This document shows positions 1 to 62,466 of a stretch of 64,000 bases of DNA, piece by piece. Every line of letters begins with the position of its first letter. The stretch's first letter is position 1. Source of the stretch: Taxillus chinensis (lineage: Eukaryota; Streptophyta; Magnoliopsida; Santalales; Loranthaceae); the NCBI GenBank assembly GCA_023512835.1, contig CM042089.1, forward strand, positions 49,995,004 to 50,059,003, written 5' to 3'. A program made the translations under genes and the position numbers. A model generated the notes under the pieces. It did not search any database, was not told the origin of the DNA, and saw only the letters and a program-made list of their open reading frames with translations.

Positions 1-8
1 ATCAAAGC
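1..8 (+). other. Remnant of primer-binding site of copia A
   Basis: The first bases align with the end of the intact tRNA-Met complementary PBS of element B (TGGTATCAGAGC at 62407-62418), with one substitution. The window therefore opens within the PBS and the 5' LTR ends a few bases upstream of base 1. Confidence 0.7.
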
Positions 9-54
9 AGTCTATTTGTTCAAAAGTAGAGATCCCACTCTTTTACTCTAAGCA

Positions 55-1198
55 ATGGCCGAAGAAAGTAGTATGCTATTCAACACTCGCCTTAACTCCG
101 GAGGTGCACAAGAGCCCATCCCAAATCGAAGCAGCAGTGAAAACATCGACCCACCTCAACCTGCTGCTGCCGCCGCTCCTCAACCACGGAGTTCTGGTTT
201 TACTCCGACGAAACCGCCCAAATTCACACCTGAGCTTTTCTCTCAGTGGAAACCTCGCATGAAGATGTTTATGGTATGCCATGATCATCTCATGTGGCCA
301 TGTCTTCATCAGGAGATTCCAATTCCCGATGACCATTGGAGAACATGGAGTTAAGAGGCCAAAGACGGATGCCGAACTTACCAACGATGAAAGAGCCTGG
401 TAGTGCGCTAGTGAAAAGGCTCTAGCTTATGTTACATCGTCTTTGGATTCTGAGGCTTTCACGGACGTCCAGGGCTGCACGTCAGCAAAAGTTGTTTGGG
501 ACAAACTGACAATCCTCTATGAGGGGAGTCAGTCCCAAATGCAAAATGTGATATGTGCTCTCAGACATAATTTTGAGAGTTTCAATCACAAACCTGGCGA
601 ATCCCTTGAAAGCATCTATCGGAGATTCGGCAAGCTCATTCTAGAGCTAAAAACTGTCAATGAGCACTACACTCAGTCTCAAATCAATGACAAGTTCTTT
701 CGATCCTTGCCGGATCGCTACTACTCCAAGCAGCTCCAGATGCAAGCTGACAAAAACTGGCCATTTACTGCCCTTGAGGAAATATATGGAGAGCTTCGGA
801 CTCATGAGGTCAGATTCAGATACACTGACCGTGATGAGAAAATAGCTCGAAAAGAAAAAGGGATAGCTCTCAAAGCTACGGAATGCTCCAGTAATCATTA
901 AGAGGATGATACGGATGAGTCAGAGAATTCTGACTCAGACGCAGAAGAGGAAATAGCTCTTCTTGTCAAATCCTTTGAACGATTCCTTCGGAAAAGTAGA
1001 AAAGGATTCAGAAGAGGCTCCTCATCATCCAGAAGGAAGGAACGATCGGAGTCGAGCTCCCAAGAATGCTTTAACTGTGGGAAACCCGGTCACTAGGCCA
1101 AGGAATGCAGATCCAAATCTAAGACGGCAGAGAAAAGTGACAAGGTTACTCCTCGACGTACTACCTCAGACAACAGCAAGAACAAGAGGAAGGCGTTC
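55..1198 (+). pseudogene. gag: copia A gag, N-terminal and nucleocapsid part
   Basis: Structural capsid protein of a copia retrotransposon. It starts at ATG 55 (MAEESSMLFNTRL), the same start used by element B at 62467. A UBN2/copia gag domain is readable at 443-901 (LESIYRRFGKLILEL, FFRSLPDRYY). A CCHC zinc knuckle (CFNCGKPGH then KEC) lies near 1069-1110. Damage: TAA at 352-354, a frame change just after it, TAG near 404, a stop at 899-901, and TAG inside the zinc knuckle. Element B has a frame change at the same knuckle, so the two copies were broken independently. Acidic, serine-rich stretches follow the knuckle. Confidence 0.88.
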
Positions 1199-2356
1199 GT
1201 GACAAAGTACATCAGTGGCTCGGAAGAAGAGGAGGAATCCTCGGATGATGAGCCAACTCCTAAGCCGAACGTCTGCCTTATGGCAAATACTGAGGTACCT
1301 TCTATCTTTGAGCTCATGAGTAAATTAGAATCTCTTACTACTGTATGTGATCATGAAAAGAATGAGAGACTAATAATTACTCAAATGTACAAAGATATGG
1401 AAAGTCAGAATAAACGTCTTGAATTTACTATTACTAGACTCGAAAAGGACATCGTTGACTTCAGAGGAAAAGAAGCTTGGTATCACGATCTAAGAGCTGA
1501 AAATCATATGTTAAATACCAATCTCTCAGGCCTAAAAGTTATAGTAAAAAGACTCAAAAATGAACTTGAACAGGAAAGGGAAATAAATCGTAAGTGGCTT
1601 AAATCCGGGGAAATAGCCTCTACATTTAGGACTGATCCGGATAATATTCGAGTCAAACCTAGCCTAGGCTCCGAATCATCAAACTCCAATGCTCAAGCTA
1701 CTGAGTGTCCTCCGGATTTCACTCAAAAACTAACCAACTTATATCCTGTTAGTATATCTAAACCGTTGGATGGTTTCATTTCAGGTGGCACCATAGTTTA
1801 TGACTGTGGAGTTGAGGCTGTTACTACACTTCCCGAAGCAGTAGCACCCGTAACTAATGATGAAGGGAAGGCTGCTGCAGTTAAAGCCAAAACTGTAGCA
1901 CCCAAAAAGAAAGGAAAGGCTAAGGCTGACGCATCTAGGGCCAAGAGCGCGTCACCCAAATGCAATGGATTAGGCCACAGGGAACAGAGTAGAAAGTCTG
2001 TAAAATCTAAGAGACCTGTATCCCCTGTTTGTACTTCACATTATAGTGTCTGTTCCATCTGTAGGGAAATGGGTCATTATCACTATGAATGTTGGAGTTT
2101 ATTTGATAACTGGCTTTGTAATCAAATTCGAACCAACAAAGATCAGTTTAATAAAAAGGTTTCTTCGAGCAAAACAAAATCTAAACCACAAAGGAGTGTC
2201 TCTCCCAAGAAAACCCAAATAAAAGAGGCAGTTGAAACTAACAAGCTAAAGTCAACTTGGAGAGCTAAAAGTCCTAGCAAAATCAAATCCGGAACTGTTG
2301 ACATTACTACTGCTCTTTCTAACCGCCCGAAACAAGTTTGGGCACCAAAAGTGTAA
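1199..2356 (+). pseudogene. gag: copia A gag C-terminal region: coiled coil plus second CCHC-like motif
   Basis: An open stretch of 385 codons continues the gag region. Residues about 35-150 are heptad-rich and probably coiled coil (LESLTTVCDHEKNERL, NKRLEFTITRLEKDIVDF). A basic Lys/Ala/Ser linker follows, then a second CX2CX4HX4C motif (CSICREMGHYHYEC) near 2050-2091. The ATG at 1199 is probably not a true start: the matching region of element B (63620 onward) reads on from gag. Element C has the same coiled coil at 51169-51555. The product presumably assembles the particle and binds RNA; the role of the distal knuckle is unknown. Confidence 0.75.
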
Positions 2357-2429
2357 ACTGTTGTCTTTCAGGAGCATCTCTGGAATGCATTGCCGGATCA
2401 CTTGAAGTTAAAAGATCAATCAAAGCAAG

Positions 2430-3594
2430 TGGATCCTCGATAGTGGATGCTCCGGACATATGACGGGTGATCAGACTCTGCTTGTAGAAGTTAATGAAAA
2501 ACGAGGTCCATCCGTTTCATATGGTGACAACAGGAAAGGTAAGACTGTTGGGTATGGCACTTTAACTAACGGCTGTGTATCAATCACTAGAGTTGCACTA
2601 GTCGAAGGTTTGAAGCATAATTTGCTAAGTGTCAGTAATTTATGTGACAAAGGATTTACTGTTTCCTTTATGTCCAACTCTTGTACAGTAAGAGAAAACT
2701 TATCCGGAGATATTAAGTTATCCGGATCAAGAGATGGGGACATATACTCAGTGGTCTTAAGAAATAATTCTTCGACCCCTGTATGCTTCCTCACTAAAGC
2801 TACAGATGAAGATAGTTGGTTATGGCACAAGCGATGCGCACATTTAAACTTTAAGACATTGTCTAAATTAGCGTCACTTGATCTTGTCACTGGTCTACCT
2901 AAACTCAAATTCTCCAGAGACACTCTCTATCGAGAATGCCAACTGGGCAAACAGACCAAACATAGCTTTAAGAGCAAATCAGTTAATTCAATAACTGCTC
3001 CTTTACAACTTCTTCATATGGACCTCTGTGGTCCTATTTCGTTCTAACATCCTTGGTCTGGTGCGAGATATACCCTTGTGGTTATCGATGATTTCACCAG
3101 ATACACATGGGTAATGTTCCTGAAATCAAAGGATCAAACTTTTGAGCATCTAGTAGATCTTTTCAACTGGATAAGCAACTCACAAGGACTGAGCATAAAG
3201 TGCATTAGGAGTGATCATGGTACAGAATTTGATTTTTCAGAAATGAGATCATATTGTTCTGAACAGGGCATATAGCATGACTTCTCTGCTCCCAGAACTC
3301 CACAACAAAATGGGGTAGCTGAGCGCAAGAATCGTACTTTAGTTGAGGCTGGTAGATCCATGTTAGCAGGGGCAACGCTTCCTCTCAGTCTATGGGCTGA
3401 AGCTGTGTCCACTGCCTGCTATGTTCAGAACAGAGAGACCCGGAATAAATTTGAACCAAAATCTGATGATGGGATTTTTGTCGGGTACTCACTACATAGC
3501 AAGGCTTATTGGGTCTTCAATAGAAAACTTTTTAAAGTTGAAGAATCTATCCATGTGACTTTTGATGAAGCTAATCTTGATTGGTCAAAAGTTG
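2430..3594 (+). pseudogene. pol: copia A pol: aspartic protease and integrase
   Basis: The protease active site reads WILDSGCSGHMTGD, with DSG codons at 2439-2447 upstream of the first in-frame ATG at 2460. The GAG-pre-integrase motif follows (WLWHKRCAHLNFKTLSKLAS, ECQLGKQ), then the integrase core: first Asp in LLHMDLCGP, second in IRSDHGTEF, Glu in [13 protein letters not shown]. Breaks: stop at 3045-3047 with a frame change before 3078, and TAG at 3273-3275. Compared with element C, about 45 residues are missing between CYVQNR and KSDDG near 3440, without loss of frame, which removes the segment just after the catalytic core. Confidence 0.92.
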
Positions 3595-5608
3595 CTTCTT
3601 CAAGTTCTAATGTGCAGGTCATGGACAGCAACATCAATTATTCGAAGTTTATGAATGTTCTTGTTACACATTCTGACCAACCACGTGGCATCAGCGAGGC
3701 ACAAAGAAATTATATGGATGATGCTACGGATGACTCAGACTCCGGACTACCATTAAGCTCCGGACATACTCCTACGGATACCCAAAATTTCGGAGCACCT
3801 TCAAGTCCGTCCGGACCCGTTAACACTGGAAGAAACAATGTTGAAGAACCACCTAGTTCTACCGTACCTTCTAATATGGAAACATCTAGTCCGGACGAAG
3901 CTCAACCAGCAGATACACCTGAACCACCTAATTTGGCAGAGCTTCAAATTGTTCAAGATCATCCATCACATGCACAGAATTACAGATGGACACGAAACCA
4001 TCCCTCAGATCAAGTGATTGGTGATCCTATTATTGGTGTAAGAACAAGAGCAGCCACCTCCAACATGAGTCTTTACTCGTGTTTTCTATCTCAAATAGAA
4101 CCAAAGGTGGTAGATGAAGCTCTTCATGATTCGAATTGGATAGAAGCCATGCAAGAAGAGTTGAATCAATTTAAGAGAAATAATGTGTGGACCTTAGTAC
4201 CAAGGCCTAAGTCTCAGCAAGTCATTGGAGTTAAATGGGTGTTCCAGAACAAGCTTGATACGGATGGAATAGTAATCCGGAACAAAGCCAGACTGGTAGC
4301 CAAAGGATATCGTCAAGAAGAAGGAATAGACTATGATGAGACCTTTGCTCCAGTAGCAAGACTTGAGGCAATCCGGATGTTTCTGGCGTATGCTTCATAT
4401 GAAAACTTCATAGTTTATCAAATGGACGTCAAGAGCGCATTCCTGAATGGAGATCTTCAAGAGGAGGTTTACGTAGAACAACCTCCCGGTTTCATTGAAC
4501 CTAAAGCAGGACATCTAGTCTACAAACTTCGGAAAGCTTTATATGGTTTGAAGCAAGCTCCAAGAGCCTGGTATGACACACTGTCAGAATTCCTACTTGC
4601 TCACAACTTCCAAAAAGGGAAGATTGACACCACCTTATTTCTACGAAAAGAGAAAGGACACACTCTAATCGTACAGATATACGTGGATGATATCATTTTC
4701 GGATCAACGAATCCGAAGCTTTGATGACAGGCAAGTTTGAGATGAGCATGATGGGAGAACTGTCCTACTTCCTCGGAATAGAAGTTAAACAATTGAAGGA
4801 AGGAATCTTCATTAATCAAGCTAAGTACACTCGCGATCTTATTAAGAAGTTTGGTATGGAAGGTTCATCTCCCGTTAAAACTCCCATGCCTGTCAGTGCC
4901 AAGTTAGATCCTGAAGTGGATGGCATATCAATAAATGTGACTGACTACAGAGGGATGATAGGATCCTTGCTGTATCTTACAGCAAGTCGCCCAGACATTA
5001 TGTTTGCAACTTGCATCTTTGCACGATATCAGCCGAATCCCAAGGAGTCACATATGCTTCATGTTAAATGGATATTAAGGTATCTCAAGGGAACGATGAA
5101 TTTGGGACTCTAGTACCCAAAGGAGTCCAACTTCACCTTATCCGGATACTCTGATGCTGACTTCGCTGGATGTCGCATCGACAGGAAGAGCACAAGTGGT
5201 ACGTGTCAGTTTCTTGGAAATAAATTAATTTCATCGTTCAGTAAGAAGCAGAATTCCGTATCAACCTCTACTGTGGAGGCGGAATACATAGCTGCTGGGA
5301 GTTGCTGCGCGCAACTACTCTGGATGCAAAGTCAACTTACTGACTACGGTTTCAACATGTCATCTATTCCACTCTACTGCGACAACACTAGTGCAATTGC
5401 TATCAGCAACAATCCTGTCATGCACCCTAAGACGAAGCATATTGAGGTCAGGTATCACTTCATACGCGACCATGTTCTCAAAAATCACATTTCCCTGGAA
5501 CATGTTGCTACTGAAGATCAACTGGCAGACATACTTACAAAGCCCCTACCTGATGCAAGATTCTCTGAACTACTCATCCGATTAGGTATGCTTGACTTCT
5601 CTGCATAG
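3595..5608 (+). pseudogene. pol: copia A pol: reverse transcriptase and RNase H
   Basis: A low-complexity Pro/Ser/Thr linker runs to about 4020, then the copia RT domain ([46 protein letters not shown]). YVDD catalytic residues are at 4680-4691. A small deletion and frame change lie at 4715-4730, just after YVDD, where element C has several extra residues. RNase H runs to 5608 (YSDADFAGC near 5148, VEAEYIAAGSCC, CDNTSAIAISNNPVMHPK, DILTKPL). Another stop is TAG 5111-5113. RT copies the RNA and RNase H removes it; this copy cannot make either as one protein. Confidence 0.93.
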
Positions 5609-7297
5609 CTTCACATTTAAATTTCCCAACAGTATACTTACTATCAGAAAATGCATTGTGCTTTTATTGAAAGTAGAAGATACATACTGACTTTAATGCT
5701 GATCATACTTACTGATTAACGGCTTCATGCTTCTGATATTGATATCAACTTCATATTGGGAGGATGCTTGTGTTTCCCGACTAAAGTCGCTTAAGCAAAC
5801 ATGATTAAAGTTTATATGATTCACCTCTTTCTGGTTTCATGACCTTAATTTTCACTGATCACCACATGACAAAAGCATGTTCATTTAGATTACTCTATTA
5901 ACATGTATAGTTGAAGAAATGAAATAGGTTAGCTCGGAATGCCTGGTGGATGAATACTCAATCGCAGTCTGATCAGCTTCTGAAGTATAGTTTTCTAATA
6001 AGATAGAATTTCTATAAACCGGAAAGGTCAACCGAGAGGATTGCACAATCTACGGGGGAGAAAATGCTTTATATATTATTCGAGTAATACCCCCCGTATA
6101 TGTCTCATGACCTCTTTCCTGACTGTCTATTTGAGGGGGAGCCTTTCATTGAGAGGATCAAATGATCTACGGGGGAGCTTAAATCTCATCTATTACCTCA
6201 GTAATGACCCCCTAATATGTCTCGGATACTCCCTCCTCTAAACCTTTACTTCCGGATCTGACTGGACATGTTGTTTTGAATCAGAATAGTGGCATGCTTG
6301 GATGTATTTTCCTTCTTCAACCATGCATTTTAATCGGCTAATCACCTGCTTACTTTTGACATGTGTCCGCTTCCTCATCTTTCACTCATGAATCCTAATT
6401 TGGCCAAATCATATGATTTTTAATTAATCTTAGCTACGTCGTTCAGCAGGATGGTTTCGCTATGTTGACCTATATGAACTTGTGTATTTATTATCTGACA
6501 TATGTCCTGATTCAGTAATATTGATCATTCTCTCGTATGTATATGTCTATTACATTCTTTGTAATGCATAAGTTTTGTTTCTCATTAGTTCGGATTATGT
6601 CGTTTTTCACTGACTATTTTCTCTTATCCGTACTAATCCTTGCCTGTTAAGCTTTTGCACTTTCAGTTCATTTTTTTTAGCTACAGGTTCAGATTTTCTT
6701 TGCAACCATATCGATAAATCTAGTCCATAGTCTTGGATTTGAAGTGTTGTGGTACTTCTCTTCTCTTCGACTTATTGACAGCAAAGGAATCTACTTTTCT
6801 CTCTCACCGCCCTCTGTTACTACGGACACGGTCTACTTTTCATCCGGATACTCCTCACTCGACTATCATTGATTCCGGATGATTGTCGGTTCATTCCTCT
6901 GGACTCCTGACACTGTCAAATTGCGATAATCCATGTCTTCTTATATATCGCGTGTTTTTGAGGAGGAATCATGATGATTCATTAAATGCAAATCTCGGGA
7001 TGCACACACTTCACCGGATGGCAAATAGCTGTTACCCTTATTTGGTCATGCAGTCTCCACGACATCGTTTCATTCAGAGGTGCACCGATATCAAGACTAA
7101 TGACATCAGCCTGTCAAGCGGTTCACTGTTTTACTCGCCATATCCCTAGAACCGCTGACATTCACAGCCTCGGTCTTATATATTTTGGTCATTCCTGCGA
7201 AGCACGAGTATTGCTCATTTCAAATCCCTAAACCTCTCGTTGCTCTTTTGATACCCAAGACCTCACCTTTCCTCTCGTCCTTCAACCTTCATCTACA
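5609..7297 (+). other. copia A post-pol noncoding region
   Basis: About 1.7 kb without a believable gene. It is AT-rich and contains a duplicated block with PPT-like G runs (annotated separately) and several TCCGGA hexamers. Short open frames here (6041-6241, 6883-7149) have no recognisable features, and the first is only the duplicated block read in frame. It may be the leader of the accessory ORF starting at 7298. Confidence 0.6.
6035..6235 (+). repeat. Duplicated PPT-like/hairpin block
   Basis: Two diverged copies of a block of about 115 bp. Each has a purine-rich CTACGGGGGAG motif (6050-6060 and 6167-6177) followed about 30 bases later by a C run (ACCCCCCGT near 6091; ACCCCCTA near 6207), so each can pair G run with C run. 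An extra GAGGGGGA lies at 6133-6140. Multiplied PPT motifs after pol are known from Sireviruses; the hairpin reading is mine. Confidence 0.65.
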
Positions 7298-10021
7298 ATG
7301 GCACCCAGAATCTCTCTATCCGGCGTTAATCCTGGCCATCTGGTCGATTGGAGTGCTGTCTCTAACCCTCTGGACTAGTTTTCCCAACTTCGCCCTCTAC
7401 TCGAAGCCTCGCATATCCTCAACTTGATCTCCAATCCTGTCGATCTTCTTATCGACGACATTATTGAGTATTACCAAAGGATTCGCTGTACCACTGACTC
7501 CATTATCTCCTATATTCGTGGTGAATCCCTCATCATCACTCCCGCCGTTCTCCGCGCTGCTCTCCACCTACCCACCGGTGAACCACAGCGTCCAAATGCC
7601 GATCCAATGGCGGCTTCTATGGGTTGCACCCAAAAAGGCAAGGAATACAAGGTGAAATCCTTCCAAGGTCGCTATCGCTGTATGGCGACCATACTGAGTC
7701 GCTGTTTACTGGCTCACACTTCAGCTCTGGACTCGGTTCCTTACGATCTTCTCCTGGCCATGTACGGCATTTTTGAAGGTCTTCCGATGGACTGGGGGAC
7801 GTTCTTGTTTCGACTGCTGCAGAATGGTCCCAAGAACCATTCCTTCGGGCGCATACTCAGCATTGTCTTTCGGCATCTTCATCTGGACCATTTTGCCCGC
7901 TATGATGCTGTTCCATTTCCCTCGGCTTATTACCTCCGTTATCTTACGTCGGATGGGAACATGACAGCCCGCCGTCCCTCTGCAGCTCTCCGCATTCTCC
8001 CTGCCTCGGAACAACAAGGCAGTTCTGTTAGTGACCCCTCCGACAGCCAAGCCCCTGATGTTAGTTCTACACCCCGATCCTCCCAGATTCGGTCCGTTGC
8101 AGCACCTTCTCTTTCTCGGGCCTCCCAGCACAGCGTTCGTGCTGACCCATCCGAGGTTACGGGGCCATCTCAGCGCAGTGCCCCTAAAGCTGTTTCCTCA
8201 GCCCCCTCTGCTGCGGATGTCCCCACTCCCTCCACCTCCGCTATTGCTGCCGCGGTTGATACCGCTATTGCTGCCGCCACTGCTGATGTCCCGGCATCTA
8301 CTCCGGAAGCTCCCTTGCCTCCTCTCCCTCAACCCCGAGATTATCTTGACCATCTCTCCGCCGACACCTTAACGGACCTATGGCTCCATTTCAACCTTGC
8401 CCACACCGCCTCCCTTCCTGACAATGATCTCTGGGTGTTTTACACGCGCCATACCTAATCCCCGGAGACCATGATGATCTGGAACTTGGATCACGGCTTT
8501 CTTACACCGGCCTCCATTCCAGATGTGCCGTTCCCTACCCGCTCCAGCCCAGTCCATTCCGCCCGGGGTCCTTCCCCTGCTAAGGCTGGCCCCTCTTCTC
8601 CTGCTGACGCCATTCCCGTGGTTGACCTCTCTAGTCAAAGCGGGTCAGCTGCTCCGGATGCCTCAGCTGCTCCGAATGCCCCTTCTGCTGCTGCTGCTGA
8701 TACTCCTGTGGACTCCTCTGCCCAGTGCACTCCTGCTCCTGTTCATGCGGGGGAGTCCTCCAAAGCTCTGGAGTTGGTCCTTGGGCGTGCCTCTTTTGGC
8801 ACGGTCCACTCCGACGCTGTGCTCTCCGCCCAGCTGGACCGACACGCTTAGGCTCATAGCGCCCAAATATCCGCCATCGCCGCCAAGGTTGATGCACTTG
8901 GCGCCCAACTCCTCTCCGCTCTCACTGATTCCTCCACTTCCATGGAACAGAAGATGGATCTCATTGCCTCGTTCGTCCATTCCTTGTTTACCTCCTTCGT
9001 GGACCTGGCGCACACGATGGCTCGCCCTCCCGTTGCTTCCCGGAGATCTGCCAAACCGGGGGAGAGAGTGTCATCTGATCCTGCTCCTTCTGCACCACAA
9101 CCATCCACTCGTGCTGAGAAGCGGTCTGCCTCTTCATTGCTTTAGGGAGTTCCAATTCCCAAACGTAGTCGCTTCTCTCAGCCAAGCTCCTCGACTGCAG
9201 CTCCTCCTCCAGCCTCTTCATCCGCAGCTGACACCTTCCTCCCATCATATGCGGCGTATGGCCCTTCTGATGCGGATGGAAGCGTGCGCAAGGCAATGAA
9301 GTCCTATGCTGCGTCTTCTGCTGAGAGAAGATGTCTCTCTAATCTGTACCATTTCTCCCCGACCGACATTCAGACCCTTTGTTCGGAGAAAGGACTCTTT
9401 ACAACAGAAGACATTGATAACTTCTCTAGGGCTGCTAAAATGGAGATGAGGCTGTTTCCATCTATATACAAGGATGGGCACTTGTTTGAAGTTCTGCCAT
9501 GCTGGAATGAAGGCTATCTTCCCAGTGTAGATCTCATTCAGTCCTTCATCGACGGAACTGCTGAGGATAGCAAGCCATGGAAAACTCTCTAAACCATCCT
9601 CATTCCGTACCGGATTATGTCGCCACATTTCATGATGGCTGTCTTCATGATACAGTCCAAACAAATGATTCTGATTGATTCTCATCAGATTGTGGAGCAT
9701 TTTGCAAGAAAGAATCAATGGGAACCACTATGTCTCAGGCTGACTGAAGCTGTGAAGAAAGCTAGATTCTACGAAGAGTTATGTATCACACCTTTGAGTC
9801 CAACTGAGAAGCTGAAGGCGATATTCCGGGGCAAGAAGCAAGTGCCACAACATCCGGATGGAGATAGCTATGGGGCTTTTGTCTGTTACTTCATGAAGTC
9901 ATTCTTGACTGTGGACAAATCTTGGAGCCAACACACCACTTATACGATGAAGCAGACAATGGAGCTTAGAGAGAAAGTAGCAACTATGATCTTTAAGTAT
10001 AGTAAGCCTTATGTACCTTAG
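7298..10021 (+). pseudogene. copia A accessory ORF: plant-retroelement domain plus Ulp1/C48-like protease domain
   Basis: One frame of about 908 codons from ATG 7298 (MAPRISLSG) to TAG 10019-10021, broken by five nonsense codons (7376, 8456, 8849, 9143, 9590) with no frame change seen. Residues about 45-210 form a helical domain (SYIRGESLIITPAVLRAALH; FQGRYRCMATILSRCLL at 7661; FGRILSIVF; PFPS to 7924) matching Athila ORF3 at 41582-42277. Long Pro/Ala/Ser linkers follow, with a possible coiled coil near 8860-9010. The C-terminus resembles Ulp1-type cysteine proteases: PHFMMAVF with His at 9626, ILIDSHQ with Asp at 9677, VPQHPDGDSYGAFVCYF near 9845-9895. Tyr (9869-9871) stands where catalytic Cys is expected. 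The position after pol is that of Sirevirus env-like ORFs, but no signal peptide or clear membrane segment is seen. Protease assignment is from pattern only. Confidence 0.72.
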
Positions 10022-10151
10022 TGAAAATCTTGTATAAAGGCTGAATTGTATTTTGTTGCTGATAAATGAAATTAGTTGTGATGCATATTCCGTATGATAT
10101 CTTTTTGCACTGCTTACCAGATCAGATTACAAAGGGTTTGGGCATATCCAT
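10022..10151 (+). other. copia A 3' untranslated spacer
   Basis: Short AT-rich stretch between the accessory ORF and the polypurine tract. Nothing else recognised. Confidence 0.6.
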
Positions 10152-10164
10152 AAATGGGGGAGAT
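10152..10164 (+). other. Polypurine tract of copia A
   Basis: AAATGGGGGAGAT lies directly before the TGTTGG start of the 3' LTR. This is the expected position and composition of the plus-strand primer. Confidence 0.88.
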
Positions 10165-10375
10165 TGTTGGATCAAGCCCAGAATTTGGATAATGCCAATA
10201 AAGCCCTATGTAATTTGATTTGAGATCTTTTATGTTTTTTTAGTCATTGCAGAAGATATGTTATTAATCCGGAGATACACTCGTGAGAGCAAAGCTAAGG
10301 ATAGGATACATAATCCTGATCCGGACAAAAGTGAGTGTCGTCAAACACTTGGTAAATAACCAAGTTTTTAATACA

Positions 10376-10930
10376 TGCGGAATAAGGAACATTCGTGCGG
10401 ACTAAGTCAAGTGATGCGGAGTAAGAATCCTGGTCCACAAGGTCGCACGAAGTAAAAGAAGATACATAGTAAAGACATCCGAGTCTTCCATACATGCGGA
10501 GTAAGGAATACTAATGCGGAATAAGGACTCAAGTCTTTATTTACACGGACTAAGGAAACTAGATGCAGAGTAAGGAATCCGGACAACTTACTCATACGGA
10601 GTAAGGAAGCGCTAGTACGGAGTAAGCACTCCGATCCCATAGACTCACCCGGAGTAAGGAACTTACATATGGAGTAAGGAACTTACATGCGGAGTAAGGA
10701 AGCGCTAGTACGGAGTAAGCACTCTGATCCCTTAGAGTCGCTCGGAGTAAGGAACTTACATACGGAGTAAGGTACTTACATACGGAGTAAGGAACTTACA
10801 TGCGGAATAAGGAAGCGCTGACACGGACTAAGGATTCCAGTACCAAATAGATACGGAGTAAGCAACCACTGACATGGAGTAAGGTTCCGAGCTTCATTAG
10901 CAACGGAGTAAGGAAAATTACACCGGACCA
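10376..10930 (+). repeat. Tandem array of CGGAGTAAGGAA-type units inside copia LTR
   Basis: Imperfect units of about 20 bp (ACGGAGTAAGGAACTTACAT is typical), mixed with longer units carrying GGAAGCGCT and GATCCCTTAGA segments. The same array is in element B at 61380-61800 with different copy number. Position upstream of the TATA box suggests an enhancer role, which is inference. Confidence 0.85.
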
Positions 10931-11159
10931 AGAAGATGCTACTTCAATTCACCGCATTTAAAGCTATCAGGTCGTGGCGTCCCGATGTAAGACAAACTCA
11001 TTGAGAACCTGAAGAATCTTACACGTGGATCACCCGGATATGTGGACACAACCTTAATTATATTTGGGAACTCACAAAGGCACTTATACTCTTCAAACCC
11101 AAGATCTTGAGCTCCACAAACCGCAACAGTCAAGACAAAGAGATTACCGAGGAATAGTT

Positions 11160-11222
11160 AGTGCTGAACGCATTCCGGAACTACAAGTTCCAAGGTTGTC
11201 TCTTTGGAATGTTTGTATAAAT
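11160..11222 (+). promoter_or_regulatory. Core promoter of copia A LTR
   Basis: TATAAAT at 11216-11222, preceded by TTCCGGAA and by an inverted repeat with GGAACT and AGTTCC arms three bases apart (near 11176-11190). The same arrangement recurs in element B with TATAAAT at 62094-62100. Confidence 0.6.
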
Positions 11223-11522
11223 ATTCATACTTGTACATTTGTGTGGCGTGAGCGAACGAGCCTGAATTAACCCTATGTATGCACAAGAGCTCAAAGATAT
11301 AATCTAGGCTAGTGTGTGAATCCTTTTGTAAACAGAGTGTAAGAGAGTCTTGCTTCTATTTTGTTGTAATTATCTCTTGATAATAAAACAAAATACTTCC
11401 ACTATCTGGTTATCTTTCGCAGTGATTCTATCACTTAACTAGATTAGTGTGGTGTCTTAAGAGATTAAAAAGAGTTTCGATAAGAGCTTATTCACCCCCC
11501 TCTAGGCTCCAAGGGACCATCA

Positions 11523-13408
11523 GACCTTCTACCCATCGACCTTCGACCCAACGACCTTTGACCCATTGACCGTTGACCTTCGACCCTGCTGACACTTTGG
11601 CCCGTTGACCTTCGCTGTTTGGCTTCTTTCGCTGGCTCTCACCCTAGCTACTCACGGGACATGTTTTAATGAGCTGGCCATCTGACAGAACCATTTTTCA
11701 GCGCATGTCGGTCACATGTGTTAAATGGAAACTTAAAAAAGGACAGTCACGAGCTGCACAGGTCGCCAGACCACCCGACCACGCATAGAATCTGGAAATA
11801 AAAATACTGCATCAATAATACAACATTAAATGCTGCAATCAATGCAATCCAGCAAAATCCTTTAAAATGTAGTCATCTGTTCAGGCGAAAGGAGTTCGAA
11901 AAAGAGAAAAACAGAGAGAGATTACGCCCAAGCTTCTTCCCTGCGCAAACAAAAAAAAAAGAGAGAGAGAGATCAGCCCCAGGAAAAAGAAGAGAAGGAT
12001 TGACACACAAAAAAATCGCCCAACTCTCTTCCTTTCCCAAAACCAAAATCGCCCCTCTTTCCCTCTTTCTTGTTTCAGCTCCCTTTTTCCCAGAAAACGA
12101 AAAACACAAAAGCAACCCAGTTCTGCCCCCTTCCTCTTACGTTTTCATCAAAAAAAAAAAGACATCGAAAAAAAAAAAACAATTCTTCTTCATTTCCCTA
12201 TTTCTTACGCCCACCTTCTTTATTCCCAGTCACCAAAAATCTCAAACCCAAAAAATACGTCACTCCAGTCCTCCAAATACTAGGAAATCTTTTTCACAAA
12301 TCTCATTACCAGATTTGTTGGTTCAATTGGAGCAGGTGACTATAGGCATGGACGGGATTCATGCAGTAGTCCGGTGTTCGAAGCTTTAAAGTCGGTTCTA
12401 TAATCCTAGTCGATATCTGTCATTTATTATTTCTTAGCTTATTTATCTTTATATTAGATGTAATTCTTAGTCTTTTCCTGTATATTTTCTTTCATTTTTT
12501 CAGTTGTTGTTCTGTGTTGTATTTCCCTTGTATTTCATTTTTTTTCTGTATATATTATATGCTGTAATATGTAAAGAATAGTAGTAAAAAAAAGTGAGAG
12601 CAAAAAAAAGGAATAAAAAAAAGCAAAAAGAGAGAGGGTGGCTTCGTTTTTTATGCTATTGTATGTCACAATCACATGATTCACGTTTTATTCGGATATG
12701 GATGTGTTTTGATATGGTCAATTCTTAAACAAAAAAAGACAACAAAAAAGGGGAACAAACAAAAAAACAAAAACAAAATGTTTCCACAAAATAGCTTCTG
12801 CAACGTTTTCAATAAAAGGTTTTTAAAATGTTTTCAAAAATGTCTCCTTAAAAAAAGAAAAACAAAACAAAAACAAAACGTTTCTTTTAGCAAAACACAA
12901 AAACCCATAAATGTTTTCTAACCCAAAAAACCAAAAAAAAAAAAGAAAAAACATATTTCCATTTTTTGGACTTCAAAATAAAACCAAAAACCAAAACAAA
13001 CCCCTAGGATCTCATTCCTTACTTCAAACAAAAAACCAAAACTTTTAGGATTCCCTTTAGAAATTTAGGGTAAATCCATTTTAACCATAACTTCAACAAA
13101 TAACTTAGTTAAATAAAAATTATAGACTTTTTAGGAAATTTAACCCCATCATGGCAGTACAAATAAAATAGAAAACCTCCTCCTCCGAAAAAAGATACCG
13201 AAAGGGCGTTGTAGGGGTACTAATCCTTCCCTACACGTAACCAACTCCTGAACCCTTCTCTGATAATGCAGACCACACCTTTAAACTACTCAAAGTAGAG
13301 GGTATCCAACTGTACCCCAAAAACAGTTGGTGGCGACTCTAAATTTTCTCACCATTGGTTTAGTTTGAGCCCACCCCAAACTGGCCCGGACGAAAACCGG
13401 TGATGACA
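11523..13408 (+). repeat. 5' LTR of G1, 3' part only
   Basis: Aligns along its length with the last 1.9 kb of the G1 3' LTR (about 29468-31357). It starts inside the GACCTTCGACCC array because copia A inserted there, and ends GTGATGACA just before the PBS. It holds purine-rich and poly-A stretches (11930-12180, 12580-12960) that give spurious Lys/Phe-rich open frames. Confidence 0.92.
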
Positions 13409-28767: not shown

Positions 28768-31357
28768 TGTTGGACCCCATTTTGTCTGGGTTGGACATAC
28801 TAACCTCATTTGATATATATACCTTTTTTGCCCATGCCATATACCTTGTTGAACAGGTCCTTAGAGATTCCCTGCGATTTGCACAAGATGGATGCATTGA
28901 CACGAATCGGGAAGCCCAAAATGGATAACCATTGCTACAAGTCCCTGAAGTACCCCAAGACCAATACCAGGGGATAGAGGAGGAAATTTGGAGAATAATG
29001 CACTTGACTGAGCTCAATTCCGATGAAAAACGAAGAAGTTATGGCCAAAAAGAAAAAAGTCAAACTTGCCAAAAGACGGTAAATGCCCCTAGTCAAACTG
29101 TCCGAAAAAGTGATCCTGCGAAATTCTCGAAACATCTATTTAAGCAAATACGAGTCTTCCTAAACAATCCCCAAAAGGTCGTCCATTTTCGCATTTTGGG
29201 TGGGGGTAAAAAGGTAATTAAAAAACTTGACTCGTAGCCTCGAAGTGTTGGCAGGTCGAAGTTTGAAGACTCGAAGCCTCGAAGACTCGAAGCCTTGAAG
29301 ACTCGAAGCCTCGAAGACTCGAAGCCTCGAAGCCTCGAAGACTCCAAGCCTCGAAAACTCAAAGCCTCGAAGCCTCGAAGCCTGTAAGCCTGCCGACACT
29401 CCGACCTGCTGACACTTCGACCCGTTGACCATTGACCTTCGACCCTACCGACACTTCGACCTGTTGACCGTTGACCTTCGACCCATCGACCTTCGACTCA
29501 CCAACCTTCGACCCGTTGACCATTGACCTTCGACCCTGCCAACACTTTGACCCTTTGACTCGTTGACCTTCGCTGTTTGGCTTCTTTCGCTGGCTCTCTC
29601 CCTAGCTACTCATGGGACATGTTTTAATGAGCTAGCCATCTGACAGAACCGTTTTTCAACGCTTGTCGGTCACATGTGTTAAATGGAAACTTAAAAAAGG
29701 ACAGTCACGAGCTGCACAGGTCGCCAGACCACCCGACCACGCACAGAATCTGGAAATAAAAATACTGCATCAATAATACAGCATTAAATGCTGCAATCAA
29801 TGCAATCCAGCAAAATCCTTTAAAATGCAGTCTTCTGTTCAGGCGAAAGGAGTTCAAAAAAGAGAAAAACAGAGAGAGATTACGCCCAAGCTTCTTCCCT
29901 GCGAAAAAAAAAAAACAAGAGAGATCAGCCCCAGGAAAAAGAAGAGAAGGATTGACACACAAAAAAATCGCCCAACTCTCTCCCTTTCCCAAAACCAAAA
30001 TCGCCCCTCTTTCCCTCTTTCTTGTTTCAGCTCCCTTTTTCCCAGAAAACGAAAACACAAAAACAACCCAGTTCTGCCCCCTTCCTCTTACGTTTTCATA
30101 AAAAAAAGACATAAAAAAAACAATTCTTCTTCATTTCCCTATTTCTTACGCCCACCTTCTTTATTCCCAGTCACCAAAAATCTCAAACCCAAAAAATACG
30201 TCACTCCAGTCCTCCAAATACTAGGAAATCTTTTTCACAAATCTCATTACAGATTTGTTGGTTCAATTGGAGCAGGCGACTATAGGCGTGGACGGGATTC
30301 ACGCAGCAGTCCGGTATTCGAAGCTCTAAAGTCGGTTCTATAATCCTAGTCAATTTCTGTCATTTATTATTTCTTAGCTTATTTATCTTTATATTAGATG
30401 TAATTCTTAATTTTTTCCTGTATATTTTCTTTCTTTTTTTCAGTTGTTGTTCTGTGTTGTATTTCCCTTGTATTTCGTTTTTTTTCTGTATATATTGTAT
30501 GCTGTAATATGTAAAGAATAGTAGTAAAAAAAAGTGAGAGCAAAAAAAAAAAGGAATGAAAAAAAAAAGCAAAAAGAGAGAGGGTGGCTTCGTTTTTTAT
30601 GTTATTGTATGTCACAATCACACGATTCACGTTTTATTCGGATATGCATATGTTTTGATATGGCCAATTCTTAAACAAAAAAAAAACAACAACAAAAAAG
30701 GGGAACAAACAAAAAAAACAAAAACAAAATGTTTCCACAAAATATCTTCTACAACGTTTTCAATAAAAGGTTTTTTAAATGTTTTCAAAAATGTCTCCTT
30801 AAAAAAAGAAAAATAAAACAAAAACAAAACGTTTCTTTTAGCAAAACACAAAAACCCATAAATGTTTTCTAACCCAAAAAACCAAAAAAAAAAGAAAAAA
30901 AATATTTCCATTTTTTGGACTTCAAAATAAAACAAAAAACCAAAACAAACCCCTAGGATCTCATTCCTCACTTCAAACAAAAAACCAAAACTTTTAGGAT
31001 TCCCTTTAGAAATTTAGGGTAAATCCATTTTAACCATAACTTCAACAAATAACTTAGTTAAATAAAAATTATAGACTTTTTAGGAAATTTAACCCCATCA
31101 TAGTAGTATAAATAAAATAGAAAACCTCATCCTCCGAAAAAAGATACCGAAAGGGCGTTGTAGGGGTGCTAATCCTTCCCTACACGTAACCAACTCCCAA
31201 ACCCTTCTCTGATAACGCAGACTACACCTTTAAACTACTCAAAGTAGAGGGTATCCAACTGTACCCCAAAAACAGTTGGTGGTGACTCTAAATTTTCTCA
31301 CCATTGGTTTAGTTTTAGCCCACCCGAAACGCACCCGGACGAAAACCGGTGATGACA
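28768..31357 (+). repeat. 3' LTR of G1 (TGTTGGACCCC...GATGACA)
   Basis: 2590 bp with TGT/ACA ends. The last 1.9 kb closely matches 11523-13408. It holds an octamer array (29230-29395), a GACCTTCGACCC-type array (29395-29575), and A-rich stretches at 29905-30130 and 30530-30900. It is followed by CCATT and then Athila ORF3. The solo LTR at 55386-58531 is a diverged relative in reverse orientation. Confidence 0.93.
29230..29575. repeat. CTCGAAGA/CTCGAAGC octamer array and GACCTTCGACC array in G1 LTR
   Basis: About 20 units of an 8-bp repeat built on CTCGAAG, followed by irregular GTTGACC/CTTCGACCC units. The 5' LTR retains only the second array because copia A cut it. The reverse-oriented relative has GGCTTCGA octamers at 57790-57990. 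Confidence 0.9.
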
Positions 31358-32542
31358 CCATTCATGCGTTGACGTAGAACAGTTTCAGACAAGGGGTGCT
31401 CGTATAACTCGCACAACATAATAGACGTGTACTGGCCCAATGGATAATCATGAGGCTCAGCCTCCACTACGAATCGCATGGTCCTGCAAAACAAATCGAC
31501 ATCATCTATGAATAAAAATTCATCACCTGCGATGCGACGTAGGAAGTCGGATGTGAAGACATCCATGTCCCTTGCAAAACGAGCTAGCAGCATTGTAGGG
31601 TCAATGAAACTTGCAAATGCCTCTTGAGCTGCCGTAGAAGAAATAGCCGGATTGATCCGCAGATGCACCGGCTCGCCAAGGAAGATCTTGAGGTTCTGCT
31701 GGCATATAAGGTCCCCATGAAATAGGTTGCACAATAGGCACAATGGCCTGAGAATAGGAAGGATCCACAAAGGGATCAAATGATGAGTATTGTGGTTCCG
31801 GCGTAGCGTCCTGCTGAAATGGAGGATAATCAATGTACTCCCCAGATGGCCCTGGTGGAGGGTACTCTTCTTGGGCAGGGTAGGAATTAGCGTATGCTAC
31901 AGGTATTGGAGTAGAGTCCTCATGTGCTGGAGGTACATCCTCAGCAGATATCTCCACCACTGGAGATTTTTTTGACTTTTGCTTGTTGCTCAAGGCCCTC
32001 CAAATTTTTCCCAGAACTCCTTTTATTTCCTTGTTGTCTCTCTTTAGCACTTCTACTGCGTGCGTTGTTCCAGCTTGATCCCTTCTTAGCTCTTGAGTTT
32101 CTTGCCTCCATGCATCATGAGAGGTAGTAGCAGGAGCTGCTGGAGCTTCCCATGCCTTTGTTGATGGTCTAGAATTGGACTGCTGATCTTACGAAATAAG
32201 TGCCATTAACTCAGTAAATTGGGCACCATTGATGTGACCATTTGTGAATGCCCAATTTATAACTTCCACCTCACTAACCACTTGGCCACTAATACATTGA
32301 AAGAAGTTGAAAACATCTTCCTTATACACATTAAACTGCATGTACATGGCAGTGAGCCTGAAGAGGGTCTGCTTTCTTTCATCTAATGGGGTGGAGGTGT
32401 CTCGCGCAACAAACTCAGTGGGTCTCTCCATATGAACACTGTGCCTTGATGGCTGTGGTTCAGCTTGGGGAACATTCCCCCAGTTGCTTCTAGAGCTTAC
32501 CCCTAAACCTCCTTCTGGTTGCAATATTCTCAAAAGCTGCTG
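31358..32542 (-). pseudogene. Athila ORF3 (env-like position), downstream part
   Basis: Continues ORF3 beyond the G2 insertion. It reads RILQPEGGLGVSSRSNWG, then FRLTAMYMQFNVYKEDVFNF, a stop near 32188, a probable coiled coil (LKRDNKEIKGVLGKIWRALS), a Pro/Tyr-rich linker, a frame change near 31640-31720, then EPVHLRINPAISSTAAQEAF to LSETVLRQRM at the G1 junction. The position after INT is that of the Athila env-like gene, but no signal peptide or membrane span is evident. Function unknown. Confidence 0.75.
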
Positions 32543-34281: not shown

Positions 34282-34284
34282 ATA

Positions 34285-34296
34285 TGGTATCGAGCA
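34285..34296 (+). other. Primer-binding site of G2
   Basis: TGGTATCGAGCA starts three bases after the LTR end. It resembles the tRNA-Met complementary PBS, with changes in its distal part. Confidence 0.75.
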
Positions 34297-35870: not shown

Positions 35871-36039
35871 CCGTTTTCATGCACCAGCAGAGAGACCAGC
35901 TCGTCAGTGGCCGGCTAGTCAGGCAGGATCGAATCAGACCCGACCTCAGGGGAGGCCGGAGCGGCAGCAGACTGAAGCTGGAGGCAGCCTTGGCGGGAAG
36001 CGCCAAGTGAGTGAGCCGACCAGTGGCACGGGCCAAGGG

Positions 36040-39845: not shown

Positions 39846-41576
39846 TGTAAGGACCCGTACCTTGAGTTAGTCAGTTTTGCCTCCTGAGTAGAGTTTTTCT
39901 AGATTTTGACCTAGTAAATGGACTCCAATGAATTCACGTGCAAAAGGAAAGATGCTTAGAATGGTGTCCTCTATCTACCACAGAAGTTTCAGGCCAAATG
40001 GACATGTATGTGAGGTGCACGTGATATGGGTCCAATTCACGTGCAAGGGTGGTTGTCTTCTAAATGATGCAAGGAGGCTAGGGGTGAAGTTTGAGAGCAT
40101 TTGGAGTGCATATGGAGTTGCACGTGAATTGGGGAATTCACGTGCAAATTGGCGTGCAGGCATATTTTTGCATGGTTCCCTTGGTTTTGTCATTCTAATG
40201 AACTTTCTCCAAAGGACCATGTTGAAATTCTGAGTATTTTGGCCTATATGGGTGCGGAAAGGTGCTAACTTGTGTGATCAAAACTACGTCGTTTTGATGC
40301 TGGGATTCACTTAATCAAAACTACGTCGTTTTGATGTTGTGTTGTCTATATAAGGAGGAGAAGCTCTCTGTTTTAGGTTTAGGGTTCTCTTCAGCTGCTG
40401 CAGCCGTCGTAGAGAGAGAGAGAGCTAGAGAGAGAGAAGGAAGGGGAGTTGCTGGTTGCTGCCGGAGCATCTTGCGTGGGGAGGACGGCGTTTAGCGCGG
40501 GAGCAAGGAAGATCTGTTTTAAGGTAGGGATTCTGTTCTTCCTAAGTCCTCCTCTGTCCTAGGGTCCTAGGGCAGAATATGAGTTATATCTGTTATATTA
40601 TTTATATGTAAATTCATATAGGTGTGATCTCCTATATGAATGTTGGCCTTCAATGGCGTGTTGTTTGGATATATGTATATATGCCTGCCAAGTGTTTGAA
40701 ATTATGTCTGTGAGGCTGTGCATGTTATGTGTTTGAGGTAATGCCTGTGAGGCTTTGCATGTTATGTGTTTGAGGTAATGCCTGTGAGGCTTTGCATGTT
40801 ATGTGTTTGAGGTAATGCCTGTGAGGCCACGCACGTCAAGTGTGTTAGATTATGTCTGTGTGGCTGGGTTTATGAGCTTGTGGATATATGCATGCTAAGT
40901 GTTCGATGTTATTCCTGTGTGACTAAGCATACTAAGTGTTTGATGTTATGCCTGTATGGCCATGTGTGCTGCGTGTTTGCTTGTACACCCGGTGGCTGTG
41001 GAAGCCCAGGGACTGTTTTGTGGAACCCGGTGGCTGTGGAAGCCCGGGACTGTTCTTGAAACCCGGTGGCTGTGGAAGCCCGGGAGTGTTTATGTACCAG
41101 TCCATGTATGATTGTGTTTGCTGTTATAGCCTGTAACTATATCTGGTGGAATAATTGTATCACGACACAGCACTTGTACACGAGGCATGTAGATGTTAGG
41201 TGCATGGGATGGGTTGGGGAGACATGATCCCTACTGAGCTGTGGTTGCTCACCCCTCCTACCATGTTGTTTTCTTTATAGGAACCTACAGGCGTTAGGTG
41301 GGACCCCAAGGTGGAAGACCCTATTTACTTTACTGTTTATGTTATTTTTTTTATGGGAACTGATGTAACCCCAATGGGGATGGATTGAAAGGAGGACTTT
41401 GTAATAAAGACTGATTTGGTTTGTGGACTGCTTTGATGGACTTTATATTTCTTGAATGTGTTGTGAATGTTTAAAATGTTAAATTCTTGATTTGTATCCT
41501 AACCCCTTTGCCCTCCGTGTGGGTAAAAGGGGAGTCACGTACCGGTTTCCTCGGGTTGGAAATCCGGGGCGTGACA
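39846..41576 (+). repeat. 3' LTR of G2
   Basis: 1731 bp, TGTAAGGACCCG to GGGGCGTGACA, near-identical to the 5' LTR. Paired palindromes at 40277-40298 and 40314-40335, TATATAA at 40347-40353. Followed by TSD TGCTG. Confidence 0.96.
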
Positions 41577-41581
41577 TGCTG

Positions 41582-42277
41582 AGATGGGAAGGGGGTGCTA
41601 TCTAAAGCGGTAAAGTGCTGGGCATATTGGTTTTGAAAAATGACACATAGCATTCTTCCATATACTCTCTTTGTCAAGTTTTTCGTCCACCATTTGAAAA
41701 TGGCGGCAGCCGAGTCCACATCTAACATATGGTCAATGCTATACATGAATTCAAGATGGGTCATAGGCACACCATCCTTTTCACTAGTTTGCAACAACAA
41801 ACACTTCCTTACCAGATGAGCTAAACATCTAAATTTACCCATAAAGCCATGTTTAGTAAACTGCCTCCTCCTTTCAAATCGTTTTGCATAGTTGAAGGCA
41901 GTACCATACTCCCCTAAGGTCAGATGAGGGAATTGATCAGTAGGTACAGGAAGGTTAAAGGTTTTCCTAATTGTCTCTAGTGTGATACGGATATACACCC
42001 CCTGTACCTGCCCTATAATTGCATCCTCTTCCTCATTAAAGTAAATGGAATGATAAAACTCATGCAAGGCAGGATAATAAATGGCACATCTGGCTGAAAC
42101 TAATCTTACTAACCCAAGATTTTGTGGCTTTAAGGCCACCTCACGTGACCATCCCAGGTTGGATTCCTCTAAGGCATTCAGATCTAGAGCATGCCCCAGG
42201 AAGATCTCCCCATCCTCACTGTTAGAAGAACTTGAGAAATGGACTTCTTCCTTGCCTGATCGCCTTGTGCGCACCAT
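41582..42277 (-). pseudogene. Athila ORF3, N-terminal domain
   Basis: Starts MVRTRRSGKEEVHFSSSSNS with an acidic/Ser-rich leader, then a helical domain: VQGVYIRITLETIRKTFNLP, HGFMGKFRCLAHLVRKCLLL, LEFMYSIDHMLDVDSAAAIF, VYGRMLCVIFQ, STPFPS. It is open for about 232 codons up to the G2 insertion; codons after 41582 come from the LTR. This is a plant-retroelement domain often labelled putative plant transposon protein. The same domain starts the accessory ORF of copia A. Function unknown. Confidence 0.82.
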
Positions 42278-43104
42278 CTTGCTATAGGAATTGAAGGAGA
42301 GGAAGGATGAAATTTAGCTACAACAGCAAGAACCAGAGCTTTTCAAATTTCAGATCTAGAAATCGTTTTTGGTGTATTTGACCTAGCTCCCGGCCTCAGT
42401 ATATATAGCGTGCAAAAGGAGATGTGCTTCAAATGCCATCATACACGTGTCCTCCAATTTTCAGGCTGATCGGACGGAAATGCCCCTATGCACGTCATAT
42501 CATCATTGTGGCATGCATGTTAGAATAATCTCATATTCGGATGGTGGGTCCTGCATGAGCTGTATATCACATGTCTCTTCTGCACGACATATAGTGGAAG
42601 GCTCTAGAAGGCTGAAAAGTGGTATTTTTGCCTTTTGACCACCAAATAGACAGATAGGATATGGCGTGCAGAAGATATTATTATTTCCCATGATGGTAGC
42701 TGTCTTCCATTAACATTTCAGAGAAATCCAAGGTGCACGCCATATCATCATAGCACGTGCATTATGACGTGCAGACCCAAATTGGCCCATTTTTCTACTG
42801 TAGCAAGCCCATGTAATGAGGATCATCTTTCTCTTTTGCACGGTATATGTTTGGGCTCAATTTCAAGCACTTGTGGGCTTCACTTTGTCTTTGCTCTTGA
42901 CGTGGGCTTGAAACTAAATTCAAAGTCTAGTGCCCATGGATATGCTCTTGGAAGCCTACAAAATGGTTAGTAAAAAGAAACAAATTTCCCTGCACCATGG
43001 TGAGTTCACACAAGAAATATAAAAACAAAAACTAAAACAAAACCATTGGGTTGCCTCCCAACAAGCGCTTCATTTAAAGTCTGTAGCTAGACTTCAAAAT
43101 CTGC
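42278..43104 (-). other. Athila spacer between INT and ORF3
   Basis: About 830 bp without a recognisable gene on either strand. Presumably leader or splice region for ORF3. Short open frames (42447-42638, 42503-42691) are not supported. Confidence 0.6.
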
Positions 43105-44337
43105 TCATGAAGGCTCAAAAGAGAGGGAATCAATGATCTCCCTCTGTGTTGGGTCATAATAAGGTTTCATCCTATTGCCATTAACCCAAAATTTCTTGCC
43201 ATCTTCAGCTTGGAGCTCAAAGCTCCCATATGGCTTCGTATCAGTTAGCACAAATGGCCCCATCCATTTTGATCGTAGCTTTCCTAGAAATAACCTTAGC
43301 CTAGTGTTGAATAACAAAACTTTCTGTCCCAGAGCTAAAGATTCTATATTAAGTTGCCTATCATGCCATTTTTTGGTTCTTTCCTTATAAGTTTTAGCAC
43401 TCTCATAGGCATCCATTCTAAACTCATCTAACTCAATTAATTGAGTCATCCTCAGTTCCTTGGTTTCTTGTAGATCAAAGTTTAATTTCCTCAAGGCCCA
43501 TTGAGCCTTGTGTTCTAATTCCACAGGTAAATGACAAGACTTCCCATATAGGATTCTGTAAGGGGACATTCCAATGGGAGTCTTGTAGGCTGTCCTATAA
43601 GCCCATAAGGCTTCATCAAGCCTTTGAGACCAATCCTTTCTCTTTCCTCCAACAATTTTCTCAAGGATAGCTTTGATTTCCCTGTTGGACACCTCAACTT
43701 GTCCATTAGCTTGTGGGTGGTAAGCTAAGGACTTCCTATGGTTGACTCCATACTTTGTCAACAACTTGTCAAACAATTTGTTACAAAAATGACTACCCTC
43801 ATCACTAATAATAGTCCTTGGTGTCCCAAAATGGCTAAAGATGTTTCCGGTAAGGAATTTAGTCACCACTCTAGCATCATTCACTCGTGTTGGTATTGCC
43901 TCAACCCACTTGGACACATAATCTACATCCAACAGAATGTATGAATACCCATCAGAAATGGGGAAAGGCCCCATAAAGTCTATGCCCCAAATATCAAAAA
44001 TTTCAACTGGAAGGATTCCAGTTAAAGGCATCTCATTCTTCCTAGACAGTCCACCTACCCTTCGACATCTATCACAAGTTTTAATGAAGACATAGGTATC
44101 TTTAACCATGTTGGGCCAATAAAACTCACATTGCATTATCTTAGCTACTGTTCTTTGCACTCCAAAGTGGCCCCCATAATGTGATGCATGACAATGATGC
44201 ATAATAGCATCCATCTCATCCTCAGGGACACACCTCCTAATGATTTGATCAGCACACCGCCTATAGAGGATATGATCATCCCAAATATATTTCTTTGCAT
44301 TCACTATGAACCGCTTCCGTTGGTGGTAATCAAATCC
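43105..44337 (-). pseudogene. pol: Athila integrase
   Basis: Open for 399 codons from 44304. HHCC-type N-terminus ([29 protein letters not shown]), then DDE core: Asp in [11 protein letters not shown], Asp in [12 protein letters not shown], Glu in [15 protein letters not shown]-terminal region has [19 protein letters not shown] and [11 protein letters not shown], the usual Athila end. No chromodomain. The frame is shared with RT and gag upstream, with a stop at 44338-44340. As a domain this is the most intact integrase of the window. Confidence 0.93.
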
Positions 44338-62404: not shown

Positions 62405-62406
62405 AG

Positions 62407-62418
62407 TGGTATCAGAGC
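62407..62418 (+). other. Primer-binding site of copia B
   Basis: TGGTATCAGAGC, complementary to the 3' end of initiator tRNA-Met, two bases after the LTR end. Confidence 0.92.
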
Positions 62419-62466
62419 GAGTTCTACTTTGTTCTAAGTAGAGATCCCACTCTTTCAATCTCAGAA

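Follow-up and report, generated by a model that had tools for sequence, protein, structure and literature searches.

What is encoded by the open reading frame (ORF) that lies between pol and the 3′ long terminal repeat (LTR) of a plant Sirevirus? The question is raised by a 64,000-nucleotide stretch of the Taxillus chinensis genome (assembly GCA_023512835.1, contig CM042089.1, positions 49,995,004 to 50,059,003, forward strand), here called the window, in which a Sirevirus-type Ty1/copia retrotransposon carries such an accessory ORF. A first-pass annotation, made from the letters alone, had recognized in its last part an Ulp1/C48-like protease domain with tyrosine in place of the catalytic cysteine. 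As judged by sequence comparison, the final ORF in this Sirevirus-type family encodes a Transposase_32-like N-terminal domain, a linker of low complexity and, at the C-terminus, a domain of the C48 type (clan CE). Within the family the window copy is defunct, with Tyr for the nucleophile and five premature stops. Features are collected in Table 1, and other loci of the genome are cited by L numbers.

The C-terminal frame (9593-10021, TILIPYRIMSPHFMMAVF...MILIDSHQ...VPQHPDGDSYGAFVCYF...KPYVP) was compared with C48 domains elsewhere in the genome. A PF02902 (Peptidase_C48) search of the 521-Mb genome gave 4308 first-look candidates, and all 150 that were scored lie above the cut-off; no match was found in 14 control genomes. 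Here, as in the protein and DNA searches described below (150 and 40 scored, respectively), first-look candidates are unconfirmed copies. In tblastn, seven of the first eight PF02902 loci matched the window piece 9593-10018 with E no higher than 0.002, the best (L003/L004) at 1.7e-12 over residues 2-138, while L001 gave no match. L001, which holds the top PF02902 match, lies in a 1092-aa open frame that is fungal-Ulp1-like by impression only, and its 209-kb contig (C191) is possibly a contaminant. When the single window piece was aligned by hhalign to a profile of five C48 loci, the probability was 97 (E 8e-11), and an eight-sequence family profile matched five other C48 loci with a probability of 99 (E 5e-19). 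Against PF02902, all six sister pieces examined score above the cut-off (E 1.3e-6 to 2.9e-4), as does L029. Locus L009 aligns to window positions 9464-10006 (E 7e-18), so the domain extends 5′ of 9593. For the window piece, neither a phmmer search of 5.8 billion proteins (two candidates, neither scoring) nor a scan of viral contigs (no match) was positive. In the PDB, SENP1 (E 2.2e-9) and yeast Ulp1 (E 2.8e-9) were matched by a profile built from five other C48 loci of the genome. This profile, together with its hhalign comparison with the family profile, is the basis for linking the family to solved Ulp1/SENP structures. The tblastn, hhalign and sister-piece results thus agree on an Ulp1/C48-like domain, as the first-pass annotation had proposed; the HMMER comparison with Peptidase_C48 that it suggested bears this out for the relatives but not for the window copy itself.

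The N-terminal domain of the window copy is related to those of other Sirevirus-type loci and of an Athila-type gypsy copy in the same window. Transposase_32 appeared below threshold in six of the nine N-domain pieces scanned, and DUF1985, which is the N-terminal domain of Kaonashi/KIU Mutator-like elements (MULEs), was not listed at E<=1 in any of the nine. Two pieces of the linker (8459-8848 and 8852-9142) match no Pfam family. Read from its ATG, the accessory frame is broken by premature in-frame stops whose first bases are 7376, 8456, 8849, 9143 and 9590; the single one in the stretch 9284-10021 is that at 9590-9592.

The His, Asp, Gln and Tyr codons named in the first-pass annotation are located at exactly bases 9626, 9677, 9848 and 9869, and these positions align with those of other C48 loci. 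His, Asp and Gln are retained in all eight family copies compared (the window, L021 and the six sister pieces), with a stop directly after Gln in L021. The nucleophile is Cys in six of the eight and Tyr in two (TAT in the window, TAC in L047), and is Cys in L029. Five of the six fetched sisters, as well as L021 and L029, therefore have His-Asp-Gln-Cys in order, and the window has the first three followed by Tyr. Across the genome, the exact 26-base context occurs with Cys in 29 copies and with Tyr in five, the window among the five, a count that takes in Cys and Tyr copies of exact context, other residues and altered contexts being outside it. Tyr is a minority state and Cys is the commoner residue in the family; loss of the nucleophile in the window copy is supported. 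Tyr arose more than once, or it marks a small sublineage; the data do not distinguish between these. Cys, His, Asp and Gln are also kept, with single exceptions, in most of the other C48 loci examined.

The C48 accessory gene belongs stably to the element and is maintained by selection. Its place in the element is supported by a DNA query running from C48 into the LTR, which was contiguous from C48 through the polypurine tract (PPT) into the 3′ LTR in all 40 scored matches, window included, and by the same order and similar spacing of domains in six loci. The 40 were scored among 3772 first-look candidates; 38 of them match the query over all 708 bases, and the other two over 707 and 706 bases. 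In the window and five further loci the order is RNase H, N-domain, C48 and PPT, with 1644-1975 bases from RNase H to N-domain, 2186-2715 from N-domain to C48, and 563-911 from C48 to PPT. These distances were taken between match starts and are approximate; L021, outside this list, shows the same order. In a protein search of the genome, 150 of 150 scored matches (7998 first-look candidates) are 89-100% identical, window included, and 111 of the 150 are free of stops within the matched stretch by hand count. The placement of the ORF between pol and the PPT of a copia host, as first annotated, is supported; neither absence of the ORF from most members nor transposon ends of its own were seen on the 3′ side, where 40 of 40 scored matches run into the LTR. 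The C48 part is also under strong purifying selection. Nei-Gojobori dN/dS is 0.03-0.29 in the 28 pairs of the eight family copies and 0.19-0.28 in the eight pairs with the diverged L029. For six chosen pairs binomial p does not exceed 2e-7, values that are indicative only because pairs share history and the six pieces are stop-free.

Together with the 10 kb upstream (L012), the window holds a complete Sirevirus-type copia element. Its primer-binding site (PBS), TGGTATCAAAGC, straddles the left edge of the window, and downstream of the gag piece CFNCGKPGH and CSICREMGHYHYEC are zinc-knuckle-like by eye. The copia pol includes RVT_2, and at 10156-10170 the sequence GGGGGAG-AT-TGTTGG places the PPT, then AT, then the TG of the 3′ LTR, a junction described for Sireviruses (PMC2829016). 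Further GGGGGAG tracts occur at 6054, 6135 and 6171, and at 8749 and 9058 within the accessory ORF; the complete octamer AGGGGGAG is found in the window element only at 6135, and several times in other loci, for example L022 and L024. The LTR pair is 98.4% identical (21 mismatches in 1360; Kimura two-parameter distance 0.0157). The five accessory-ORF stops and broken pol in window 1-11522 seem to be damage beyond LTR age, and the copy may have been mobilised in trans when already damaged. Short repeats with CGGAGTAAGG are present in the Sirevirus LTRs at 10372-10934 and 61384-61800, where the copies differ. A C48-to-LTR match near 72195, outside the window, is probably the 3′ end of the second family copy (61178 onward).

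The gene is not confined to one family. For a survey of context we took 21 C48 loci, of which 20 were hand-picked from the PF02902 table, hence not random, and L009 was added. A Sirevirus-type PPT/LTR junction lies within 600 bases after the PF02902 match in 10 of the 21 (L009, L016, L018, L019, L021, L022, L024, L026, L027 and L029, with variants in L018 and L026) and is absent from 11. In 15 of the 21 loci an N-domain match lies 5′ of the PF02902 match in the same orientation (hand-corrected); the case is ambiguous for L021 and L030, and no such match was found for L014, L018, L019 or L028. In L021 and L030 the PF02902 match is in a different C48 stretch from the co-resident window-like piece. 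Copia RNase H, N-domain, C48 and PPT follow in order in L022, L024, L026, L027 and L029; in L015 and L017 a truncated copia reverse transcriptase (RT) lies next to a truncated N-domain, and the copia link is uncertain. Several distinct C48 clades occur in Sirevirus-type elements of this one genome (L009, L013, L015-L028). In the clade of L009, L013, L015, L017 and L028 the carrier is less clear, the PPT/LTR junction being present in L009 only. Near its C48 locus, L009 also has a frame (38-961(+)) with Gemini_AL1 (E 1e-24) and Gemini_AL1_M (E 2.1e-21), an endogenous geminivirus-like Rep remnant. In L009-L011 (C2:27761001-27791000) two segments of about 6.1 kb, inverted relative to each other and 99.5% identical, hold two C48 copies in opposite orientation.

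A second superfamily is also involved. In L031, L032 and a gypsy copy in the window, gypsy integrase is followed by N-domain and C48, with RT in L031 and the window copy as well, and the C48 frames of L031 and L032 both pass PF02902. We take this carrier to be Athila-type, by eye, from its pol frames. A tree built with FastTree from 27 sequences (136 columns), whose deep branches and root are uncertain, unites the three gypsy C48 sequences (0.994), makes L014 their sister (0.911) and sets them apart from the copia clades. These comparisons support the presence of a related C48 gene both in several clades of Sireviruses and in a gypsy lineage of Athila type, and they point to gene exchange between the copia and gypsy superfamilies or to repeated capture. 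L016 and L020, considered as gypsy carriers from pol matches upstream, were rejected, since a Sirevirus-type PPT/LTR junction follows C48 in L016 and several AGGGGGAG lie downstream in L020; the gypsy pol upstream of them is probably that of another element. The Athila-type C48 domain in the window is split by an apparent LTR element (about -1999 to 31357, LTR copies 11523-13408 and 29473-31357), and the window Sirevirus, in our reading, sits in the left LTR of that element. Another LTR element, 32543-41576 with LTRs 97.8% identical, interrupts the Athila-type accessory gene within its N-domain. Elsewhere in the window there are tandem repeats of 38 bases (15888-16238) and 15 bases (18338-18500).

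Table 1. Features of the Sirevirus-type and Athila-type elements in window coordinates.
Feature	Position	Strand	Remarks
Sirevirus-type (Ty1/copia) internal region	1..10164	+	5′ LTR upstream of window
5′ LTR	-1365 to -6 (L012 8635-9994)		from the 10 kb upstream (L012)
gag piece	404..898	+	Retrotran_gag_2, E 1.9e-19 (Pfam)
pol remnants, in pieces	2412..5605	+	gag_pre-integrase, SH3-like, RVT_2 (Pfam)
RNase H piece	5114-5605	+	assigned by eye
Accessory ORF	7298..10021	+	between pol and 3′ LTR; ATG 7298
N-domain	7379..8068	+	right limit approximate; weak, sub-threshold Transposase_32 match, E 0.0035 (Pfam)
Pro/Ser/Ala-rich linker	8069..9400	+	limits by eye
C48 (Ulp1-type) protease-like domain	9464..10012	+	limits from tblastn with PF02902 loci
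His of C48 triad	9626..9628	+	
Asp of C48 triad	9677..9679	+	
Gln, oxyanion position	9848..9850	+	
TAT (Tyr), nucleophile position	9869..9871	+	Cys in most sampled relatives
Terminal PPT GGGGGAG	10156..10162	+	
3′ LTR	10165..11522	+	
Target-site duplication GACCT	11523..11527	+	identical five bases precede 5′ LTR in L012
Pre-C48 stretch, accessory gene of Athila-type gypsy	31315..31896	-	remaining C48 at -1999 to -2505 (L012 7495-8001(-))
N-domain of Athila-type accessory gene	41471..42313	-	Transposase_32 E 2.2e-4, sub-threshold; interrupted at 41576 by inserted LTR element
Gypsy integrase and RT frames	43105..45555	-	recognized by eye; served as queries
Second family copy	61178..64000	+	5′ LTR 61178-62404, PBS 62407-62418, gag start

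The likeliest role of the accessory protein, one in which we place somewhat more belief than doubt, is that of a clan CE isopeptidase, encoded by the element and directed at modifier conjugates of the host, perhaps against silencing. The protein would act in trans within the host cell. Its C48 domain would cleave a modifier of the SUMO or ubiquitin type (NEDD8, for example) at an isopeptide or peptide bond, and its N-domain may select the target. Relief from host control, whether that control is silencing of chromatin or turnover of the element's proteins, would be the likeliest benefit to the element. The analogy is with Vandal elements that bear Ulp1: a review that also places Ulp1 in MULEs (PMC13317346) connects their KIU genes with hypomethylation of related copies.

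Several results weigh against this role. Taken alone, the window piece has no Pfam match at E<=10, its best PDB match (E 1.8) is unrelated, and its AlphaFold model, with a predicted local distance difference test score (pLDDT) of 48, is unusable. Used by itself, the family profile has a bacterial thiol protease as its top PDB match (E 0.021), with SENP1 only at E 0.026 and Ulp1 at E 0.26. The six sister pieces were hand-picked from rows without stops, a choice that favours intact copies. Tyr recurs at the nucleophile position (5 of 34 exact-context copies, plus L047). Finally, Kaonashi C48 proteins were judged unlikely to act on SUMO in the relevant passage of PMC6117577. A broader proposal, which we put forward tentatively and rate as doubtful on balance, is that the third ORF long called envelope-like could in this plant be a shared C48 gene that passed between the copia (Sirevirus) and gypsy (Athila) superfamilies, encoding a trans-acting anti-silencing isopeptidase, the LTR counterpart of KIU/VANC.

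Instead of host conjugates, the protease could mature the element's own proteins in the manner of adenain, the maturation protease of adenovirus. Clan CE includes viral processing proteases, and L043 and L044 match Peptidase_C5 at E 0.13 and 0.11, values at chance level; copia elements, however, have an aspartic protease of their own, and we regard self-maturation as unlikely, if worth keeping in mind. The domain might also be a pseudo-protease that binds the modifier or its conjugates without cutting. Tyr is indeed found at the nucleophile position in the window, L047 and four further copies, but Cys in 29 of 34 exact-context copies and the persistence of all four residues (Cys, His, Asp and Gln) at most of the other C48 loci examined, with single exceptions, make this improbable. 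That the ORF is the classical Sirevirus envelope-like gene, encoding a membrane or fusion protein whose C48 resemblance is incidental, has in its favour that Sireviruses are often described with such a gene at this position (in passages of PMC2829016 and PMC3599292). We consider it highly improbable, given that all six sister pieces pass PF02902, the triad is kept in most, and the C48 part is under strong purifying selection. We give almost no credence to the chance landing in the window copy of an Ulp1 fragment from a host gene or DNA transposon: Ulp1 is known in plant MULE and CACTA transposons from the passages cited here and PF02902 candidates abound in this genome (4308 at first look, 150 scored), but we reject a chance fragment or a nested DNA transposon because all 40 scored DNA matches continue into the LTR and six loci share the layout, to which the 150 scored copies and purifying selection add.

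The protease identity, the mostly conserved catalytic residues and the strong purifying selection make the question of the Sirevirus 3′ gene directly testable by biochemistry. LTR retrotransposons join the mobile elements known to carry Ulp1, and the presence of the gene in two retrotransposon superfamilies points to exchange between them or repeated capture. Text searches of the open-licence PMC literature, made largely by listing, found no LTR-borne Ulp1; subscription literature lies outside that scope and an earlier report may exist. The terms "Ulp1", "SUMO" and "C48" are absent from the main text of two papers on added domains in LTR elements (PMC11963269 and PMC9289625).

Among known systems, SENP1 and yeast Ulp1 have the same His-Asp-Gln-Cys layout and are matched by the five-locus profile of the genome, but they are cellular enzymes, and the window family itself is more distant from them (profile E 0.026 and 0.26). 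In Ginger1 DNA transposons, Ulp1 is located at the C-terminus of the transposon protein, as in the window family; there, however, it is an extra domain of an integrase-like transposase, and the elements are listed from animal genomes (excerpts of PMC2836005). Chenopodium CACTA transposons likewise have Peptidase_C48 in a second ORF of a plant transposon (in part of PMC8978399), but these are DNA transposons with other accompanying domains. Kaonashi/KIU genes, Ulp1-bearing genes of MULEs without terminal inverted repeats (some VANC-type) that are known from Arabidopsis, with similar ones in melon, rice and grapevine, are also transposon-borne C48 genes; they are present in many copies in Arabidopsis and offer a precedent for an anti-silencing role (passages of PMC13317346 and PMC6117577). 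The label "Ulp1 protease family protein (DUF1985)" appears in a passage of PMC5821449. Unlike the Kaonashi/KIU carriers, that of the window is an LTR retrotransposon with LTRs, a 5-bp target-site duplication, PBS and PPT (no MULE transposase search was made), and the N-domain of its family weakly matches Transposase_32, DUF1985 not being listed. SIRE1-type Sireviruses with an envelope-like gene are copia elements with GGGGGAG tracts and an ORF between pol and the 3′ LTR, as here (PMC2829016). Set against the envelope-like description of SIRE1-type ORFs, which were compared by description, the ORF of the window family encodes a C48-like domain.
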